In this document: piece after piece, positions 2,605 to 32,598 of the stretch | How the letters are laid out: each line of letters opens with the position of its first letter | Position numbering within the stretch: position 1 is the stretch's first letter | Virus record (IMG/VR): IMGVR_UViG_3300044729_002979 | Coordinates: 1 to 40,197 of that record | Length of the DNA stretch: 40,197 nt | Source: a virus | Strand: one strand, 5' to 3' | Translations under genes and position numbers: made by a program | Notes under the pieces: model-generated | The model's input: the letters and a program-made list of their open reading frames with translations, nothing else | What the model was told of the DNA's origin: nothing | Database searches by the model: none

Positions 2605-3438
2605 TTACCCGTTGCCCTGGCCTTCCAGTGTAATGCCCCATTTTGTAGCAAGCCATGCCTGTACGGCGTCGCGGTCGGTGGGGCTTAGGACGGAGGGGAA
2701 GATGACGTACTCGCCAATCAGGCCGGACCAGCCACGGTTGAGGTTGGAGAAGCCGCGATCATTGCCTATTTGAATACCAGAACTTGAGAAGATCGTGTTA
2801 CCGGAGGAGCTGTTGATTTGCATAATGGCAGGATCTTCGATAGAAGGTGAGCCAAACAAGCCGCCTGAAAACTTGTTGCTAGTGCCACCATTGATGAAAA
2901 GCTGGTCAAAACCAGTCCCGTCTTGCGTCAACGATGAGCCGTATGCCAGCACATACCAATTACCATTGTGTGCGGTAAGAAGACCGGCATAGTTACCTGC
3001 GGTGCCGCCAAAGGCAGCATCAACAACTACATACACTTCCCCGATTGTTATGGGAGTACCATCATTGTTAGCGTGGTACAAGAAGTTGTCATGGTCTGGG
3101 CTTATGCCCCAGTCCAAGCACTTCAATCCGTTAATGCCAGTGACGTAATACGGATATGGACCGGTGGCCGATTTTGTAAGAGTCCAGCCTCGGCTGCCTT
3201 TATCAGTGACCTGAGCAATTTCGCCGCTTTCTAACACCCCTACAGTCGATTCATCGGCAAAGTCGTACCAGAGAACGGGGGACAGTGCGGGGATGGGATT
3301 TGGCGGGGTTACGTTTGGCCAGATCCCTGCCCGCTGCGCATCGCACTGCTCATCGAGCAGCCAACTGCCGCTGGCGTTGCTTGTAGTAGAGACGCGGCGT
3401 GGACCCATGAGGCCGCCGTTGCTTCCGAGACGTGGCAT
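2605..3438 (-). CDS. Tail adhesin with LamG-like (concanavalin) body
   Basis: A 277-residue protein made of two parts. Residues 1-42 are the anchor (LGSNGGLMGPRR ... ASGSWLLDEQ ... AGIWPN) shared with the genes at 3581-4693 and 5122-5706. The body, from about residue 50, has VLWYDFADESTV, a GEIAQVTDKGSRGW segment, GEVYVVVDAAFGG, and ends GLIGEYVIFPSVLS..DRDAVQAWLATKWGI. This is the usual layout of LamG/concanavalin-like jelly-roll domains in phage and bacterial adhesins, where the last part closes the fold. Such domains usually bind glycans. The gene is preceded by a 27-codon frame and followed by the small basic gene. Attachment to the tail through the anchor is inferred. Confidence 0.8.
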   Translation of the reverse strand: MPRLGSNGGLMGPRRVSTTSNASGSWLLDEQCDAQRAGIWPNVTPPNPIPALSPVLWYDFADESTVGVLESGEIAQVTDKGSRGWTLTKSATGPYPYYVTGINGLKCLDWGISPDHDNFLYHANNDGTPITIGEVYVVVDAAFGGTAGNYAGLLTAHNGNWYVLAYGSSLTQDGTGFDQLFINGGTSNKFSGGLFGSPSIEDPAIMQINSSSGNTIFSSSGIQIGNDRGFSNLNRGWSGLIGEYVIFPSVLSPTDRDAVQAWLATKWGITLEGQGNG

Positions 3439-3580: not shown

Positions 3581-4693
3581 TTACGCAAGACTGATAACCC
3601 CGTCAGAACCGCCTGCGAGATCAGGGCTGACTAAACCACTGACCGCACCCAAACTTGTCACAGTATCGTTTGCCACTGAATAGGCGTAAGCCTGCATACT
3701 CTCGTATGCATTGCCGGGGGTGGAGTACAGGAATAGTATGTTCGGGTCTACGGCGCTGAAAACAGGCCAGCATCCACTCACCGCATCCCCCGAAAGTTGA
3801 GTCAAAGATGCGCCGTTGAATGTATAAACCCCGGCACCCGCAACAACTTTAGTGACATCTGGACTAAATGCAGCTCCCCAGCTAATTGAGCTTTGAGCTA
3901 TCTCTAGAAGTGGCGAGAAATTATCTCCCGTTCTTGAGAAAAGTTGAGCTGTCTCAGCATTACCAATGAGCAAATAATCCTCGTTCGATGACATGGACAT
4001 GCTTCGCTTATTGCGGTAACCATTTGATACCTCGCAACCCCCCATTTCAGAGAAAGAATCACCAGTTCGTGAGAAAACTTTGAACGATCTTGAGGTGCTA
4101 CCGCCATAGTAGTCAAAGAGAACGCAGAGGTAGTTACCCTGGGGTGACCAAATCAGTTGAAAGACACCGTCCGCTGAGGCAAAATTAACGGTTGTAAGGT
4201 AGTTGAACTCACTTAGCGTACTGTTTCCTTTGTAAATCCAAATTGTCCCAGGGGAACTATTACTCATAAAAGCAACGTACAACCCGTTAGGCGAAACAGC
4301 AGCCCACGTTATCGGGAAATTCGCTACATTTTCAGGATTGCATGGCAACAGAGTATAAGTAGATCCTGACAATTTATACACCATTGCATTTCGGCCCGTG
4401 TCTAAAGTAGACCCGTATGCTAAAATAGTACCTTTAGCAGATAAAGAGGGACCTCCCGTACCGTAGGTGTTGGCAACACCTCCCGTGATTGAAAGAGGAG
4501 CCCCTAGAGCTTCGGTTGTCAAGTAATTCACATAAATTCGATAATTGCGTGCCACGATCTGAGCAGGCAGTGGCCAGATTCCCGCGCTCGCCGCGATCTT
4601 CTGCTCGTCAAGATCCCAGATACCGCTGGCGTTGCTGGTAGAGGGGATGCGGGGCTTGCCGCGAAGGCCGCCGTTGTAGCCGAGCAGTGCCAT
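3581..4693 (-). CDS. Tail adhesin with beta-propeller body
   Basis: A 370-residue protein. Residues 1-41 are the shared anchor (LGYNGGLRGKPR ... NASGIWDLDEQ ... AGIWPL). The remaining 330 residues contain repeated blade-like units spaced about 45-60 residues apart, each with a pattern such as WAAVSPNGLYVAF, LIWSPQGNYLCVLF, SMSSNEDYLLIG and AAFSPDVTKVVAG. These are the D/N-G/S-turn and strand patterns of WD40-like or TolB-like propellers. A propeller as receptor-binding body is less usual in phages than lectin folds. The ligand is unknown. GC content drops sharply after the anchor, suggesting the body was acquired separately. Confidence 0.75.
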   Translation of the reverse strand: MALLGYNGGLRGKPRIPSTSNASGIWDLDEQKIAASAGIWPLPAQIVARNYRIYVNYLTTEALGAPLSITGGVANTYGTGGPSLSAKGTILAYGSTLDTGRNAMVYKLSGSTYTLLPCNPENVANFPITWAAVSPNGLYVAFMSNSSPGTIWIYKGNSTLSEFNYLTTVNFASADGVFQLIWSPQGNYLCVLFDYYGGSTSRSFKVFSRTGDSFSEMGGCEVSNGYRNKRSMSMSSNEDYLLIGNAETAQLFSRTGDNFSPLLEIAQSSISWGAAFSPDVTKVVAGAGVYTFNGASLTQLSGDAVSGCWPVFSAVDPNILFLYSTPGNAYESMQAYAYSVANDTVTSLGAVSGLVSPDLAGGSDGVISLA

Positions 4694-4696
4694 GAT

Positions 4697-5125
4697 TCAG
4701 GGATCCGGTGATGCAGGCGCAGGAGGCTGCGGCCAGGTGATGTCAAACGGGTTGGCAGCATCGGCCAGGTCGCGCAGGGCCTGGCGGTAGGCGGCCCAGG
4801 CGTCACGATCGGCGCCGAGGTCGTAGTCAACGATCTGCGTCCAGTCGCTGGCCTTGAGCAGCTCGATGCGCCGCTGGCGGACCTTGGCGTGCTGCGCCTG
4901 CAGCTCATCGAAGCTGTAGGGGCGCACCACAAAGGCGCTGCCGTCCCAGTCGATGGTCTCCAGCTTCGGGTTGCACTCGGGGCGCTGGTAGGGGCCGCTG
5001 TACCCGGCACGCTCCAGCTCGTCAGGCGTGAAGGTGCTGTTGTCGGTGCGGGTGCTGCCGTCCGCAAAGCGGATGCGGTGCGGCAGGGGTGCTGCGGTGG
5101 TTTGGTAGTGGGAGTAGAGGGTCAT
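4697..5125 (-). CDS. Tail fibre assembly chaperone-like protein (Phage_tail_APC type)
   Basis: A 142-residue protein. The C-terminal half carries RRIELLKASDWTQIVDYDL, then AWAAYRQALRDLAD and PFDITWPQPP. This LL..sDWTQ...aYRqaLRdl...WP pattern is the hallmark of the phage tail assembly chaperone family used next to fibre genes. The N-terminal half (about residues 1-75) is proline-rich and may bind the fibre partner. It lies between the propeller and discoidin-like adhesins and overlaps the latter by ATGA (5122-5125). Its likely role is to help fold or attach one or more of the neighbouring adhesins; which one cannot be told. Confidence 0.75.
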   Translation of the reverse strand: MTLYSHYQTTAAPLPHRIRFADGSTRTDNSTFTPDELERAGYSGPYQRPECNPKLETIDWDGSAFVVRPYSFDELQAQHAKVRQRRIELLKASDWTQIVDYDLGADRDAWAAYRQALRDLADAANPFDITWPQPPAPASPDP

Positions 5126-5706
5126 GGATATACCTGTCCGGGGGCAAGAGCGTAGAACTCAGACAATCCTAAATAAACGCTGGCACTAATTCTGATGTAT
5201 CTAGCAGAAATTGCAACAGTCCGTTGTTGTATTCCCCCATAACTGCCTACATTTAGCAAAAATGTCCATGTTGTATTATCTGAAGAGTAATGTATATCTG
5301 CATTATCATGAAAACCATTCGGACCTGGCGATGAGGCCCAGTCTGTGCCTACAGGAGTTTGACCATATACAATGGTTCCAACTACTCTCGTCGCGCCAAG
5401 ATCCATTGTCACAAAGGCGATATTTCCAAATGGACCCCCGCCAGAAAATGAGTCAACAAATGTGCCAGACGGATTGACAATGACTCCATCTTGCATATTT
5501 GCAACACTTGGCGGTGGCATACGGTAATCTATATGCGGTGCATGATACAAGTAATTAATACTACTCAAGTTTATGTTTGTTGGTGAATCTGGCCAAATCG
5601 CTGCCCGTCTCGCCACGCTCTGCTCGTTCTGAAACCACAGCCCCGAAGCTGCGGCAGCAGTAGGCGTGCGCCTGACGCCCATGAGGCCACCGTTGAAGCC
5701 CAACAT
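5122..5706 (-). CDS. Tail adhesin with discoidin-like (F5/8 type C) body
   Basis: A 194-residue protein with the shared anchor at residues 1-40 (LGFNGGLMGVRR ... ASGLWFQNEQ ... AAIWPD). The body has ATRVVGTIVYGQTPVG, an NADIHYSSDNTTWTFLLNVG segment and late RTVAISARYIRISAS. The order of V..I.yg....g, i.YS.D...W..l and aRYIRi is characteristic of F5/8 type C (discoidin) carbohydrate-binding domains. It probably binds a host surface glycan. The start overlaps the stop of the upstream gene as TGATG at 5706. The body is clearly AT-richer than the anchor-coding part. Confidence 0.8.
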   Translation of the reverse strand: MLGFNGGLMGVRRTPTAAAASGLWFQNEQSVARRAAIWPDSPTNINLSSINYLYHAPHIDYRMPPPSVANMQDGVIVNPSGTFVDSFSGGGPFGNIAFVTMDLGATRVVGTIVYGQTPVGTDWASSPGPNGFHDNADIHYSSDNTTWTFLLNVGSYGGIQQRTVAISARYIRISASVYLGLSEFYALAPGQVYP

Positions 5707-6065
5707 CAGCTGATTTCCTCATAGCTGATGGTCAGCTCCAGATCGCCTGCTGCGCTGGCCTGTGCGCGGAGGCTGTGGCCTTCCTCCAGGTAGATGTACG
5801 CCTCGCGGGTCACGAGCACCTGGGTGGCGTCGGCTGGCACAGTGATCGTTTTGCCAATGGCAAACCCAGTGGAGCCGTTGTAATGCTCCAAGCTGATGTC
5901 AGCAGCAGCAGCGCCATCCACGTTGGCGCAGTACACCGAATTGATTTTCAGCACCTTGCCGCTGCTGGCGGCGTTGCTCAGTGCCGCAGCCATCGAGGTG
6001 GTGACGGCATAGCCCACGGTCTTGCCGACGATCGTGTTTGGCGTCTTGAGGTTCGGTGCAGCCAT
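5706..6065 (-). CDS. Small virion structural protein, cyanophage type
   Basis: A 119-residue protein with MAAPNLKTPNTIVGKTVGYA, SNAASSGKVLKINSVYCANV, VPADATQVLVTREAYIYLEE and a C-terminal ELTISYEEIS. I recognise this layout from a small structural protein common in cyanophages, including T4-like ones, where copies are found near fibre genes. It is predicted to be a compact beta-sandwich without catalytic residues. It follows the second tail tube gene after a gap of about 50 bases and is coupled by TGATG to the discoidin-like adhesin. The exact position in the virion is unknown. Confidence 0.75.
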   Translation of the reverse strand: MAAPNLKTPNTIVGKTVGYAVTTSMAAALSNAASSGKVLKINSVYCANVDGAAAADISLEHYNGSTGFAIGKTITVPADATQVLVTREAYIYLEEGHSLRAQASAAGDLELTISYEEIS

Positions 6066-6119: not shown

Positions 6120-6992
6120 TTAATTTCCCCACCAACCAATATAAACGTTTTCCTCCCAGCCATAAAGCTGAACTGACATATCAGACCAATAATCGCTGGA
6201 TACAACCGGAGGGGTCGGTGGCTCAATTGTTCCTTGACTGAAGTCAGGATTCACGAATCCAGATGGGCGGAAATTGATTGACACCATCGAGGCGTCATCT
6301 GGATTTGCTTTAAGGCTTGCGCTTGTCAAAACGGCTTCAAGTTCAATTGACCTTGAAAGGGAATCGCTGACTACGCCACCAACTTGCACTCGATCGACAT
6401 AGAGCTTGATTGCTGCGCCTACTTGCTGGCGCTTGAGCACATCGCTGATAATTCTTGAGGAGATTGTTTTTTCCTCATCTGTCATGTAAACATTGACCGT
6501 TCCATTGCCATCTGCAAACCCAGGAATGTAAGATCTGAAAGGCGTGTACTGGCCAAGCACTTGACCGATCTTGCTTACGTCAATCTCAGATCTAGAGAAT
6601 TCAAAAGACCAATCTCGCACCTCAGAAACAGCGGCGTAGTCCTTGTAGCTAACCCTGAACCTTGCTGGTGATGCAACTGTACCAGAGCTGGAAATATTGA
6701 TACTGCTTCCAGGATATGTAGAAGAAACTTTCAGGATACCCGTTTCTTTCGTGTACTCAATAACGTAGTAAGTCGTGGAGTCAGAAATACCTGCTGGTAG
6801 CGTGCCAGAAATAGGGCCATCCTGTGGGCTGTAAATAGAAAAAGCGACCGGATCGCTAGCTTCAAACCCAAGAAATGTGCCTACAAAAATTTCATCTGTA
6901 GACGTGTCTACATCTGCAGGCACAAAACTCGCAACAGTTCCTGCGGGTTTGTAGTAAAAAGCGCCAGAAATGCCAGAGAGAACAGTTGCCAT
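6120..6992 (-). CDS. Second tail tube protein with C-terminal extension
   Basis: A 290-residue paralogue of the major tail tube protein at 27504-28271. Both start with MATVLSGISGAFYYKPAGT and align over about 250 residues, sharing ISDSTTYYVI/LSDSTTYYVI, EVRDWS, SRSEIDV, NVYMTDEE and LTSASL..NPDDA. This copy adds about 40 residues at the C-terminus, with a Pro-rich linker (IEPPTPPVVSSDYWSD) and an aromatic end (GWEENVYIGWWGN). It lies within the adhesin island, 20 kb downstream of the tube gene. Tube proteins with added C-terminal modules occur in other siphophages as minor tube subunits; here a minor subunit or distal ring carrying a surface module is inferred. The first 20 codons are nearly identical at the DNA level in both copies. 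Confidence 0.8.
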   Translation of the reverse strand: MATVLSGISGAFYYKPAGTVASFVPADVDTSTDEIFVGTFLGFEASDPVAFSIYSPQDGPISGTLPAGISDSTTYYVIEYTKETGILKVSSTYPGSSINISSSGTVASPARFRVSYKDYAAVSEVRDWSFEFSRSEIDVSKIGQVLGQYTPFRSYIPGFADGNGTVNVYMTDEEKTISSRIISDVLKRQQVGAAIKLYVDRVQVGGVVSDSLSRSIELEAVLTSASLKANPDDASMVSINFRPSGFVNPDFSQGTIEPPTPPVVSSDYWSDMSVQLYGWEENVYIGWWGN

Positions 6993-11839: not shown

Positions 11840-12913
11840 TTACCCGTAGCCCGGTGGGATGACAGGCAGCTCGATAGGGCTCATCCGCAGTGCGATCTCG
11901 CCAACTGTTACGAAATTTAGCGATCCTGCTATTACCTCGTCAACCCTTGTGTTAATTGCAATTGAAGTTGCGAGTAATTGCGTTGAGTAATAAAGGTCGC
12001 CCGGCAGCAATTCATTATCTATCTCGCGATTGTCTATCATCCAAAACTCAGCATCCGCCTTGCACCCCTTTTCTGTCATCAGCAAGAGCTGCATTAGCAT
12101 CGTTCCGTCTGTTTTTTCTGCGCCAAGATCTTTCCTTTCAACAAAAAAGTCTATTGATCCGCCACCGGTAACAATTGATTTTACTGAATCACCAAACCGC
12201 TCACCAACTGATGTTGTGTCAACCTCGGGAGCGCTCAAGTTCAAAGACCACTGCGAAGCGTCAGCCTGAACAACCCACAGGGCTCCCTCCAGTCCAGCAT
12301 TGATAAAATAACGAGACGAAGGAGCGCTATTGCAGATAGAAGCAAGCTTTACTTCACTTTGATCTTGCGAGAAGCTATAGTCTTTGATTTCTTCCGAACA
12401 CAATTCAATCGCTGTATTGTAGTCTAAGGTAGCAAGCGCAGAAATAATCAGACCGTTAAAATCTACTGCATAAATTGGCACTCTGTTATTTGAAAATCCA
12501 TTTAGCGAATCAGCCTTGTTTGTATAAAAGCTAAGTCCATTCAACTGATCTCTATGAACAAAGTAGGTAATTGTTGTGGTCAGGCCACAACTACTTTGAT
12601 TGACATAAAAAGGGTCTCCGTCTGAATCGTAAAAGGGGGAACTATCGCTTGCTATGTGATCTCTGTTTGGGCCAATCGTCCAGGGTCCGCCAAAATAAGC
12701 TGCGTAGCCATTTGGGCAATCGGGACCATCTGTAGCACTGTCAAACGGAATTCCATTCGCGCAGGCAAGCAAAACTTCGTCGCCCGACCAAAAAGATGGA
12801 TCGCGAACGTAAATAGAATTGCTTGAAGTCTGAACGCTACTTGGGCGTACAACAATAGGCTCTGGAGCCTCTCGCTTCAGCCTTATCTTTCCACCAACGC
12901 CAAGAACTGCCAT
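11840..12913 (-). CDS. Tail structural protein with tube-like C-terminal half
   Basis: A 357-residue protein beginning MAVLGVGGKIRLKREAPEPI. The first 190 residues look like a beta-rich module with several cysteines and no family I recognise. The C-terminal half carries WSLNLSAPEVDTTSVGERFG, SIVTGGGSIDFFVERKDLG and AINTRVDEVIAGSLNFVTVG, which follow the same pattern as the tube-like protein encoded just upstream (12913-13305): a strand, TTS.G, then G.G/aTGsa and a closing v.G..nF.vtG. A tail tip or distal ring role is inferred. The start overlaps the upstream stop as TGATG at 12913. Confidence 0.7.
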   Translation of the reverse strand: MAVLGVGGKIRLKREAPEPIVVRPSSVQTSSNSIYVRDPSFWSGDEVLLACANGIPFDSATDGPDCPNGYAAYFGGPWTIGPNRDHIASDSSPFYDSDGDPFYVNQSSCGLTTTITYFVHRDQLNGLSFYTNKADSLNGFSNNRVPIYAVDFNGLIISALATLDYNTAIELCSEEIKDYSFSQDQSEVKLASICNSAPSSRYFINAGLEGALWVVQADASQWSLNLSAPEVDTTSVGERFGDSVKSIVTGGGSIDFFVERKDLGAEKTDGTMLMQLLLMTEKGCKADAEFWMIDNREIDNELLPGDLYYSTQLLATSIAINTRVDEVIAGSLNFVTVGEIALRMSPIELPVIPPGYG

Positions 12914-13305
12914 CAGAAAATAGCCTCAAACGGACCAGTTACCTGAAAATTGATACTGCACACGGTAAGCTCTCCAACTGAAACGGGAGTGCTTGCCTGT
13001 GTCACGAATGCAGTGAATTCAATAGAATTATTTGTTGAGCTGTCAAGAATCATTGCAACCGAACCCCCGCCATTGTTGATGAAAATGCTGTTCAGCAGAT
13101 TCATCGCTCCGCCATCATCTTTGTCATAGATAATGGTTGCGCTTCCAGTTGCGCCTCGCAAGCCTTCGACGTAGGTTCTTTCGTAAACGCCAAGACTTGT
13201 AGTCTCAAGAGCGTCACGGGAAATGTCAATAGAAAAGCTGCGGCACTTTGCAATGCGAACGCCATTGTACTGCAGTTCGCCATTGGCCCCGGTCAAGACT
13301 GCCAT
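12913..13305 (-). CDS. Small tail tube-like protein
   Basis: A 130-residue protein with MAVLTGANGELQYNGVRIAK, SFSIDISRDALETTSLGVYE, TYVEGLRGATGSATIIYDKDD and a C-terminal VSVGELTVCSINFQVTGPFEA. This order of segments is the usual signature of phage tail tube proteins of the beta-sandwich type. As the window also has an obvious major tube gene at 27504-28271, this one may be a distal tail ring or tip component that uses the same fold. It is coupled by TGATG junctions on both sides, so it is part of one tail-tip operon. Function is inferred from fold signature and position. Confidence 0.7.
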   Translation of the reverse strand: MAVLTGANGELQYNGVRIAKCRSFSIDISRDALETTSLGVYERTYVEGLRGATGSATIIYDKDDGGAMNLLNSIFINNGGGSVAMILDSSTNNSIEFTAFVTQASTPVSVGELTVCSINFQVTGPFEAIF

Positions 13306-13685
13306 CAGCCGTCCCTCTGTCCGTCGAGTTTCACGCTTATACTACTTCTCCCTGGCGTAACAGATGTAACTATAGGTTGCTGAGAGAATCGCCAGATGTA
13401 ATCACCTTTTAGTTTTGAAAATAGCGATTCATCCATGCCAGCCCAGACTTCATCTGGAAGCTCTACCGCACCCGTGCTTCCGCGAGCAGAGTCATAAGCA
13501 TTGGCGATAAGCAAAGCGTCTGAATCTGGAACATTTGAAAACTCAAGATCAATTGAGGAATCAAATGGTTTGCTTCCGTAGGCGCGGGTTACACCCGTTC
13601 CAGCAATACTTACAAAACGCTTGACTGGATACTGGCCTTGCGTTATGCGTCGCGAAGTTGGCGTCAGCGAAGGAAAAGCGGTCAT
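13305..13685 (-). CDS. Minor tail protein (distal tail-like)
   Basis: A 126-residue protein with MTAFPSLTPTSRRITQGQYP, YGSKPFDSSIDLEFSNVPDS, a GSTGAVELPDEVWAGMDESL segment and WRFSQQPIVTSVTPGRSSIS near the end. I recognise this layout from small minor tail proteins of marine and cyanobacterial siphophages. Such proteins usually form part of the distal tail or the collar around the tip. It lies between the large tip protein (overlap ATGA at 13682-13685) and the small tube-like gene (TGATG at 13305). No catalytic residues are evident. Confidence 0.7.
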   Translation of the reverse strand: MTAFPSLTPTSRRITQGQYPVKRFVSIAGTGVTRAYGSKPFDSSIDLEFSNVPDSDALLIANAYDSARGSTGAVELPDEVWAGMDESLFSKLKGDYIWRFSQQPIVTSVTPGRSSISVKLDGQRDG

Positions 13686-27503: not shown

Positions 27504-28271
27504 TCAGGCGGTAGCAAAATCAAAGTCAACCGTCTCGGATGGACGGAAGTTAATTGCAATCGACTGAGCATCGTCGGGATTGACGTTCAGCGAGGCAGAA
27601 GTCAGGCTCACTGCCATTTCAATGGAGCGGCTCTTGGTTTCATCAATGACACCAGCAATCTCGATGCGATCCATGTAAAGCTTCATGGAAGCACCCACTT
27701 GCTTGCGCAGGAGAACGTCTTGAACGATTCGGTTGGCAAGGCCGCTCTCTTCGTCCGTCATGTAGACGTTTGCAGTACCATTGGCGTCGCCAAAGCCAGA
27801 AATGTACTTCCTGAAAGGAACGTACTGACCAAGGGTTTGACCGATAGTAGTAACGTCGATTTCGGAGCGAGAAACTTCAAGGCTCCAGTCACGAACTTCC
27901 GCTACCACGGCGTAATCAGCGTAGTAAACCTCAAACTTGTTGGGCGAGGCTGCAGTTCCATCATCGGTCAGATCAACAGCGCTTCCGCCAATGCTTGTTG
28001 ACACTTGCAGATCGCCAGTTGCTGCGTCGTAACTGATCACGTAGTAAGTGGTAGAGTCGCTGAGGGGCGCTGGCAGTGTTCCGGCTCCAGCACCGCCAGT
28101 TTGGGTATTGACGAGACCAAACTTGACGGGATCGCCAGGCTTGAAGTTGAACGCAGAGCCAATATTGATGATATCGGTCGTTGTGTTGACGAAAGACTCA
28201 ATGAAGGTGGCCTGGGTGCCAGCTGGCTTGTAGTAAAAAGCGCCAGAAATGCCGGACAGAACGGTTGCCAT
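27504..28271 (-). CDS. Major tail tube protein
   Basis: A 255-residue protein beginning MATVLSGISGAFYYKPAGTQ, with AVVAEVRDWSLEVSRSEIDV, TTIGQTLGQYVPFRKYISGF, GDANGTANVYMTDEESGLAN and AGVIDETKSRSIEMAVSLTS. The central W.lev.rseid.TtiG...yi.GfgdanGta pattern is typical of siphophage and cyanophage tail tube proteins, which stack as hexameric rings around the tape measure. It lies directly after the tail terminator gene and has its own intrinsic terminator, consistent with high expression. A hairpin of the GGGC-NGT-GCCC type is 26 bases upstream of the ATG, and no Shine-Dalgarno sequence is visible there. A paralogue with a C-terminal extension is encoded at 6120-6992. Confidence 0.9.
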   Translation of the reverse strand: MATVLSGISGAFYYKPAGTQATFIESFVNTTTDIINIGSAFNFKPGDPVKFGLVNTQTGGAGAGTLPAPLSDSTTYYVISYDAATGDLQVSTSIGGSAVDLTDDGTAASPNKFEVYYADYAVVAEVRDWSLEVSRSEIDVTTIGQTLGQYVPFRKYISGFGDANGTANVYMTDEESGLANRIVQDVLLRKQVGASMKLYMDRIEIAGVIDETKSRSIEMAVSLTSASLNVNPDDAQSIAINFRPSETVDFDFATA

Positions 28272-32010: not shown

Positions 32011-32598
32011 CTACTGCTCAAAGTCTACGGCCAGGTTGCCATCTTCATCGCCAAGATACCTAACAACAGCCAAGCAAACAGAGTAGAACATTTCGCCCGG
32101 AAAATTGCTTTTCATTTTATTGACGATGTTGCACACAAATATCGTATTTTCCTTGGTATATCCCTCGCCACTGTCTATTCGCTCAATAGAAACACTATTT
32201 GGCAGATTTGGCTGTGTGGTCATCTCCCATCCTGTGTAGGCGCATATTCCCCCTTGCGCATCCCAGGCCGCGCAAAGATCATCGGCAGTTATCGAGAATT
32301 CCTGGCCACGTTTTTTTGAACTTTCACGACAGCATCTAAGAAATGTTTTGACCCTTCCCTCAAAAGTGCTGTATTTCTTTTCAAGAGAGCGCCTACCCCC
32401 CTCTCTGCAACACTGCTTGCACCACGAATGATAGCCGTCGGATGTTTGCTTGTGCTTGAAAAAATTACTTACATGGCTAATCGCTTCGCATTTTGCGCAA
32501 ATTTTTTCTTGGGTTTCAGGAAAAAAGAAAGCTCTTTTGGAGTTGTTGGCGTACCTGGAGCGCTCTGGAGTCGGAATCAAGGGTCTGTATCGAATCAA
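32011..32598 (-). CDS. Free-standing HNH-type endonuclease
   Basis: A protein of up to 195 residues. CAKC at 34-37 and CKQC at 60-63 form a likely zinc-binding pair, with FKHKQTSDGYHSWC between them, as in many phage HNH enzymes. Residues 116-165 contain GGICAYTGWEMT and SVSIERIDSGEGYTKENTIF with VCNIVNKMKSN, matching the SleRID...GYt.eN...vC..cN.mK motif of the HNH family. No ATG is available; the first start is TTG 32598, and the frame is continuous back to the TGA stop of the gene upstream (32632). It probably acts as a homing endonuclease or packaging-related nuclease; a homing role is favoured because it interrupts a row of small head genes. Confidence 0.8.
   Translation of the reverse strand: MIRYRPLIPTPERSRYANNSKRAFFFPETQEKICAKCEAISHVSNFFKHKQTSDGYHSWCKQCCREGGRRSLEKKYSTFEGRVKTFLRCCRESSKKRGQEFSITADDLCAAWDAQGGICAYTGWEMTTQPNLPNSVSIERIDSGEGYTKENTIFVCNIVNKMKSNFPGEMFYSVCLAVVRYLGDEDGNLAVDFEQ

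Follow-up and report, generated by a model that had tools for sequence, protein, structure and literature searches.

In T2-type phages, the gene for the adhesin gp38 comes next after the gene for gp37. The N-terminus of gp38 must match gp37, and a mismatched N-terminus makes gp38 fail on the gp37 concerned, according to the available part of PMC12892980. C-terminal extensions of tail tube proteins have been described for SPP1 gp17.1* and for TpeX of 936 phages; in the sections available of PMC8718954 and PMC6669499, these arise by a programmed frameshift of one gene and consist of a folded FN3, Ig, or CBM domain. In lambda, the minor tail protein gpM (109 residues) has a topology identical to that of the gpV tube domain; each of them assembles into hexameric rings, gpM being the distal one, as described in the available part of PMC10721106.

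Here, we analyzed the IMG/VR virus record IMGVR_UViG_3300044729_002979 over its positions 1 to 40,197 (40,197 nucleotides; referred to as the window). This record contains two close copies of a tail tube gene, encoding the proteins P0001 and P0002 (Table 1). The original prediction described the P0001 gene as a second tube-type gene with a linker and an aromatic end, lying among adhesin genes about 20 kb from the first copy, and this description was confirmed: the reading frame is intact, and P0001 and P0002 share 150 identities over 253 residues (59%; E 9e-109). The P0001 gene lies between the gene for a 1508-residue tail fiber and small adhesin-like genes, that is, after the fiber gene and not in the slot ahead of the chaperone and tape-measure genes that is usual for major tube genes. 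The named records with relatives of the tube are those of Synechococcus phages or cyanophages, and the host probably belongs to the cyanobacteria.

Table 1. Coordinates in the window of the P0001 gene, its parts, and the other tail genes discussed in the text
Feature	Coordinates	Strand	Evidence or remark
Adhesin-like protein, anchor GSNGGLMG..IWP	2605..3438	(-)	translation; phrog_10356 virion structural protein
Adhesin-like protein, anchor GYNGGLRG..IWP	3581..4693	(-)	translation
Tail-fiber assembly chaperone type protein	4697..5125	(-)	PF16778, 57.5 bits (cutoff 26.6); phrog_4912
Adhesin-like protein, N-terminal anchor GFNGGLMG..ASGxW..EQ..IWP	5122..5706	(-)	translation
MAAPN gene, 119 aa, jelly-roll virion protein, NL-type N-terminus, proposed docking partner	5706..6065	(-)	
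P0001 gene	6120-6992	(-)	intact ORF, 290 aa
P0001 residues 267-290, class A C-terminal aromatic peptide, 24 aa, DYWSDMSVQLYGWEENVYIGWWGN	6123..6194	(-)	
P0001 residues 254-266, short Pro-rich linker (EPPTPPVVSS)	6195..6233	(-)	translation; pLDDT <50 over 253-290
P0001 residues 1-253, tail-tube (major tail protein) domain	6234..6992	(-)	identity to 27504-28271; fold
Tail-fiber gene directly upstream of P0001, 1508 aa	7284..11810	(-)	phrog_529, E 1.7e-79
Second distant tube-fold protein, 357 aa	11840..12913	(-)	hhalign prob 95, E 2.7e-8
Distant tube-fold protein	12913..13305	(-)	hhalign prob 98, E 2e-13; phrog_10528 major tail protein, E 4e-10
gpM-like minor tail protein without peptide	13305..13685	(-)	phrog_15525, E 7e-12
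P0002, major tail tube gene, 255 aa	27504..28271	(-)	precedes chaperone and tape-measure genes

By sequence and predicted structure, P0001 is a tube-type protein. A Pfam search with P0001 gave no match, and its match to phrog_1407 (major tail protein) is weak (22.4 bits, E 1.5e-4); a tube profile run against the sequences of solved structures gave three matches, all with E >0.05 and none of the three to a phage tail protein. An AlphaFold2 model, based on an alignment of 41 rows, has a confident core, the low-confidence parts being a long loop (residues 135–160) and the extension (residues 253–290). This extension of 37 to 38 residues has a mean pLDDT of about 30 and is predicted to be disordered, with no folded domain. 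The top Foldseek match of the model is the phage T1 tube (9l0f, E 4.7e-4) and the best matches are mostly tail tubes, with TM-scores that are low (0.28–0.35), in part because of the disordered segments. The VIA structural aligner gave Z values of 9 to 10 to the 80alpha, GTA, lambda, and monocin tubes and to Hcp, with an rmsd of 4.3 to 6.3 over 115 to 133 residues for the top tubes. Of the 79 columns that show conservation in 95% or more of 39 other tubes, P0001 retains 75; when these other tubes were left out in turn and subjected to the same test, the lowest value was 92% and the median 98.8%. The predicted tube-type protein displaying a C-terminal peptide is thus borne out by the modeled fold, the disorder of residues 253–290, the conserved columns, and the purifying selection described in the next paragraph.

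A protein 99% identical to P0001, with the same neighboring genes, is encoded on the IMG/VR contig 3300010354_014984 (L003; 10,360 bases). The flanks of this contig have 94 to 96% DNA identity to the window, which makes L003 a distinct haplotype, and its copy rules out that P0001 is an assembly chimera or a lone fluke. The two P0001 copies differ by 10 synonymous and 3 nonsynonymous changes (dN/dS 0.09; P 7e-5 under neutrality), showing that P0001 is under purifying selection as measured against this one near relative. That P0001 is a decayed copy was rejected on the basis of the intact reading frame, the 75 of 79 conserved columns, and this dN/dS. Among 123 distinct tube ORFs, the C-terminal extension occurs only on P0001 and the L003 copy. 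The distribution of the paralogue pair in related phages was found in part: L003 shares the P0001 gene, and a second full-length tube match in the same record was not found in three whole-record searches (50, 33, and 50 records, one twice), an absence that is weak evidence because most of the records searched are fragments.

The two tube genes of the window had been suggested to reflect a recent duplication or gene conversion, since their 5′ ends appeared nearly identical at the DNA level. A tree of 118 tube proteins places P0001 and the L003 copy beside the L221 and L224 major tubes (support 96/97), with a stem length of 0.77 changes per column, and P0002 in a separate clade of 36 rows (support 100/99). 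Constraining P0001 and P0002 to group together costs 28.4 lnL, a strong difference in likelihood, with a borderline p-AU of 0.0507, the stem of P0001 being long. The first 20 codons of the two genes match at 49 of 60 nucleotides, and the same codon is used for 11 of the 19 residues shared in this region, compared with 58 of 150 gene-wide. Over codons 3 to 19, the DNA of P0001 matches P0002 at 43 of 51 positions and tube genes of other phages at up to 43 or 42 of 51, the median over 76 distinct ends being 39 of 51; the protein sequence of this stretch, TVLSGxSGAxYYKPAGT, is conserved throughout the tube family. Codon identity between P0001 and P0002 is also high at codons 141 to 160 (11 of 14), so the 5′ end of P0001 is not special. 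Hence, the near identity of the 5′ ends was overstated, as other tubes match equally well, and recent duplication or gene conversion was rejected on the basis of a tree that places the copies apart, albeit with the borderline AU value, and of 5′ DNA that is ordinary for the family. The tube domain of P0001 probably derives from another phage lineage, and the case is a caution against taking tube paralogues for recent duplications.

An alternative is that P0001 is a by-product of recombination, in which a foreign tube gene became fused to an existing peptide and has little or no expression and no role. Recombination is indeed the simplest account of the anchor swap described later, and the gene is found in two haplotypes only. 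We nevertheless consider this explanation very improbable in view of the intact reading frame, the 75 of 79 conserved columns, and the dN/dS of 0.09 (P 7e-5 under neutrality), and because the absence of decay along a stem as long as 0.77 changes per column speaks for long maintenance.

The aromatic end of P0001 was traced with a DNA pattern scan over IMG/VR, from which the record of the window itself may be excluded. The scan gave 65 stretches, which together with L120 make 66 loci (L120 and L193 are one record). Five chance matches, none of which ends at the motif, were dropped (L187, L201, L212, L213, and L218), leaving 61 partly redundant loci that encode 44 distinct proteins. On these 61 ORFs the peptide is strictly C-terminal, with 29 distinct 26-residue ends, and reads approximately [DN]Y[WF]..[ML]..Q[LVMI][YFW].W[EDQN]....[VI][EDG]WWG[ND], with a few deviations at the first position. 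The invariance of W, V/I, WWG, and N/D is by construction, as the scan pattern demands these residues; Y-23, Q-16, and the stop right after the motif were not demanded. Searches of annotated phages for the aromatic end by tblastn (three queries, low-complexity filter on) gave no match, and in one open literature library we found no description of the peptide or of a separate extended tube paralogue.

The proteins that carry the peptide are of several kinds. The anchor is of gpM type a in 45 of the 61 ORFs and of gpM type b in 10 (L206, missed by the anchor rule, matches the type b reference too), and short ORFs and longer proteins are also among the carriers. A tube anchor occurs once in this set, in L127 (identical to the L003 record), and the tube-anchored peptide is thus known from just two closely related haplotypes, the window and L003. 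The type a anchor corresponds to phrog_15525, a minor tail protein, and both type b proteins tested score above the curated cutoff of 39 bits for PF05939 (L188, 47.0; L120, 42.6), which we take to be the lambda gpM family. Pfam gave no match for the type a carrier L153 or for the product of 13305–13685 in the window, both of which match phrog_15525 only; the latter, which lacks the peptide, is homologous to the peptide-bearing gpM-a anchors of relatives (hhalign prob 99.85, E 1e-30). Five distinct peptide-bearing records (L293 and L295–L298; L294 duplicates the L293 genes) each encode one or more additional gpM-like proteins that lack the peptide, indicating that a pair of bare and peptide-bearing paralogues is usual there too. 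In two records, the peptide is found on a short ORF immediately 5′ of a homologue of the 5706–6065 gene of the window. L116 10592–10726 (G026) and L117 5486–5620 (G028) encode the bare class A peptide as ORFs of 44 to 45 residues directly before MAAPN. These ORFs have no anchor domain in frame and may represent a cut-down form or one that has lost its anchor.

The spread of the peptide over different carriers bears on its function. The original prediction was that of a surface-binding peptide; that a C-terminal peptide is displayed still stands, whereas surface binding appears less likely than docking, because the end occurs on tail proteins of unrelated kinds and goes with the gene that follows, not with the tube. 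P0001 may conceivably serve as a minor tube subunit dispersed over the length of the tail, the aromatic end of which itself binds the host surface weakly, in the manner of SPP1 gp17.1* or the TpeX extensions. P0001 has the fold and the conserved columns of a tube, and adhesive tube subunits with C-terminal extensions are known from the available parts of PMC8718954 and PMC6669499; the end of P0001, however, is a predicted disordered segment of 24 residues and not an Ig, FN3, or CBM domain, and in relatives the same end is borne by gpM-type proteins and short ORFs. We regard such a role as unlikely.

The gene that follows the peptide encodes the MAAPN protein, the model of which is an all-β jelly roll (pLDDT 87.8) with first residues of low confidence. 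The matches of this model in the PDB are modest (KHP40 trimeric cement protein, E 1.0e-3), with Z values of 8.4 to 9.6 to nucleoplasmin-like rolls and a viral turret; in BFVD there are good matches to virion structural proteins of S-TIM5, MaMV-DC, and other phages. A search with MAAPN against the sequences of solved structures gave no match, and its homologues reach a pelagiphage and a lake phage. In 60 of the 61 peptide loci, the gene 3′ of the peptide ORF encodes a MAAPNL protein of about 119 residues, the exception, L131, being a stretch of 1172 bases. Among 3211 distinct ORFs of at least 120 residues, a denominator that is not a random sample because the loci were fetched by peptide or MAAPN patterns, 49 end in WW[GA]x, and a MAAPN-type start comes next in all 49.

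The ORFs upstream of MAAPN were surveyed for 80 homologues in IMG/VR and three named phages (S-SKS1, DSL-LC04, and HTVC033P), and the resulting 83 pairs were merged to 70 when the last 60 residues and the MAAPN start were identical. Of the 70 distinct ORFs, 64 carry at their end a peptide of one of five classes, namely A (WW(G/A)x), B (YWxEDxYxxW), C (xGMIF), D (WxxWxW), and E (FEDAT), and none was recognized in the remaining 6; the class rules were drawn up after inspection of the ends, and most of the 16 ORFs initially classed as “other” were assigned once short ORFs were allowed. Class A goes with an NL N-terminus in 17 of 17 cases, and classes B, D, and E go with an NI N-terminus, which is mostly MAAPNIKSGSSVTTVTGKT on 122-residue proteins, in 31 of 31. 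When only gpM-a anchors are considered, the numbers are 11 of 11 (A with NL) and 18 of 18 (B/D/E with NI). Class C is found with NL (13) and with diverged NI-like starts (3; MANPN, MATPN, and MAAPNIAG, which are not of the 122-residue NI type), meaning that the pairing of class and N-terminus is not one to one. Class C peptides (..DPVIAGMIF or similar) end tail-fiber-like and short proteins encoded directly before MAAPN-type genes in L304, L305, L306, L351, and several of L364–L386, and also precede such genes in S-SKS1, pelagiphage HTVC033P, and phage DSL-LC04, so the arrangement extends past the phage group of the window.

A tree of the MAAPN bodies (DNA, 108 rows) implies 14 or more changes between the NL and NI states. 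Peptide class and N-terminus switch together in all four supported independent pairs (sign test p 0.125), four being too few for this test to reach significance by itself; the number of independent pairs is 13 when unsupported branches are admitted. After L003, the MAAPN body of the window has its nearest neighbors in classes E, D, and B, which are of the NI type, yet it has an NL N-terminus and is preceded by a class A peptide. Judged from these relationships, the peptide/MAAPN junction of the window is itself a recombinant, and the unit that switches is thus the end of one gene together with the beginning of the gene after it. A contact of the peptide with the MAAPN N-terminus would explain the co-switching. 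The two are also adjacent on the DNA, the gap being a few nucleotides for class A, so recombination tracts could cause co-switching without contact.

The surrounding genes of the window include further candidates for host contact. The products of 2605–3438, 3581–4693, and 5122–5706 have a common N-terminus of about 40 residues (NGGL.G..R......ASG.W...EQ...A.IWP), probably a shared attachment motif, followed by differing C-terminal domains; similar N-terminal starts are seen in the relatives L293 and L298. The 5122–5706 product has a weak F5/8 type C match (E 4.7e-6), just under the Pfam cutoff. With the products of 12913–13305 and 11840–12913 in the tail-tip region, the phage has four tube-type proteins overall, and homologues of these two distant tube-fold proteins are present in many relatives. 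In the head-gene region, 32011–32598 is a Cys/His-rich ORF of 195 residues that by eye resembles a small homing endonuclease and has no Pfam match.

Alternatively, P0001 could form one special ring at or close to the tail tip, replacing the gpM ring or lying beside it, with the peptide as an assembly signal for fiber or baseplate and not meant for MAAPN. Such a ring would fit with the gpM-type carriers in relatives, lambda gpM being the distal ring according to the available part of PMC10721106, and with a P0001 gene that comes after the fiber gene. The constant neighbor of the peptide, however, is MAAPN and not a fiber gene, and the window retains a gpM-like gene (13305–13685), so its gpM slot is not empty. 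We think it improbable that this is the role of P0001.

The reading that we prefer, and to which we give about an even chance, makes P0001 a tail subunit that anchors an adhesin, its C-terminal peptide docking the N-terminus of the MAAPN protein encoded next. A ring-forming tail protein, here the tube domain of P0001, would serve as the anchor, and a flexible linker, very variable in length, would take the 24-residue aromatic peptide to the tail exterior. There, the peptide would dock the N-terminus of the small jelly-roll protein MAAPN, and the products of the adhesin genes after MAAPN would complete the host-contact device. P0001 would be present in the virion as part of a ring and would have a role in adsorption, and MAAPN may act as an adhesin. 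In most relatives, the same peptide is carried by a paralogue of another ring-forming protein, the lambda gpM-type minor tail protein, and in the window this anchor would have been replaced by the tube domain of another phage lineage. Since gpM and the gpV tube domain are alike in lambda, the gpM-type and tube anchors may be considered versions of one kind of part.

In essence, the C-terminus of the tube copy resembles a plug by which host-binding parts could be fastened to the tail. A broader and more doubtful possibility is a plug-and-socket code, in which the peptides, of at least five classes, would be sockets that can be grafted on almost any tail protein (gpM rings, tube subunits, fibers, and small ORFs), and the plug would be about the first dozen residues of the next-encoded jelly-roll adhesin, that is, the MAAPN start. 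If so, carrier and adhesin could be exchanged independently by recombination, and the window would show a socket that moved to a tube subunit from another phage. The switching of the peptide together with the N-terminus of the next gene bears on the long-standing question of how phages exchange host-contact parts without breaking tail assembly. The pairing of peptide and MAAPN offers a concrete and cheap binding test with cognate and noncognate partners, and the peptide provides a means of locating the anchor–adhesin junction in uncultured phages.

Compared with described systems, cyanophage KBS-S-2A and its relatives (Synechococcus siphophages) have a tube that is 55 to 58% identical to both tubes of the window; unlike the window, KBS-S-2A has one tube gene in its whole record. 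Lambda gpM (PF05939) is the kind of protein that usually carries the peptide in relatives, whereas the carrier in the window is a tube domain, and we know of no such C-terminal extension on lambda gpM itself. SPP1 gp17.1/gp17.1* and TpeX of the 936 phages, as far as the available descriptions go, resemble P0001 in having a tube domain with a displayed C-terminal extension, accessory to the main tube. P0001 differs from gp17.1* and TpeX in being encoded by a separate, diverged gene that is in frame throughout, with no frameshift origin, and in ending with a disordered peptide of 24 residues that is common to non-tube proteins, rather than with a folded adhesive domain. By analogy, gp37–gp38 appears to be the nearest proven case of matching between carrier and adhesin, in that the tip of the upstream protein would hold the next-encoded adhesin in both systems; binding was shown for gp37–gp38, to judge from the available part of the source, and is proposed for P0001 and MAAPN. 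The components themselves differ, gp37 being a trimeric fiber and gp38 an adhesin of polyglycine helices, whereas the putative carrier here is a tail ring protein and MAAPN is modeled as a jelly roll.
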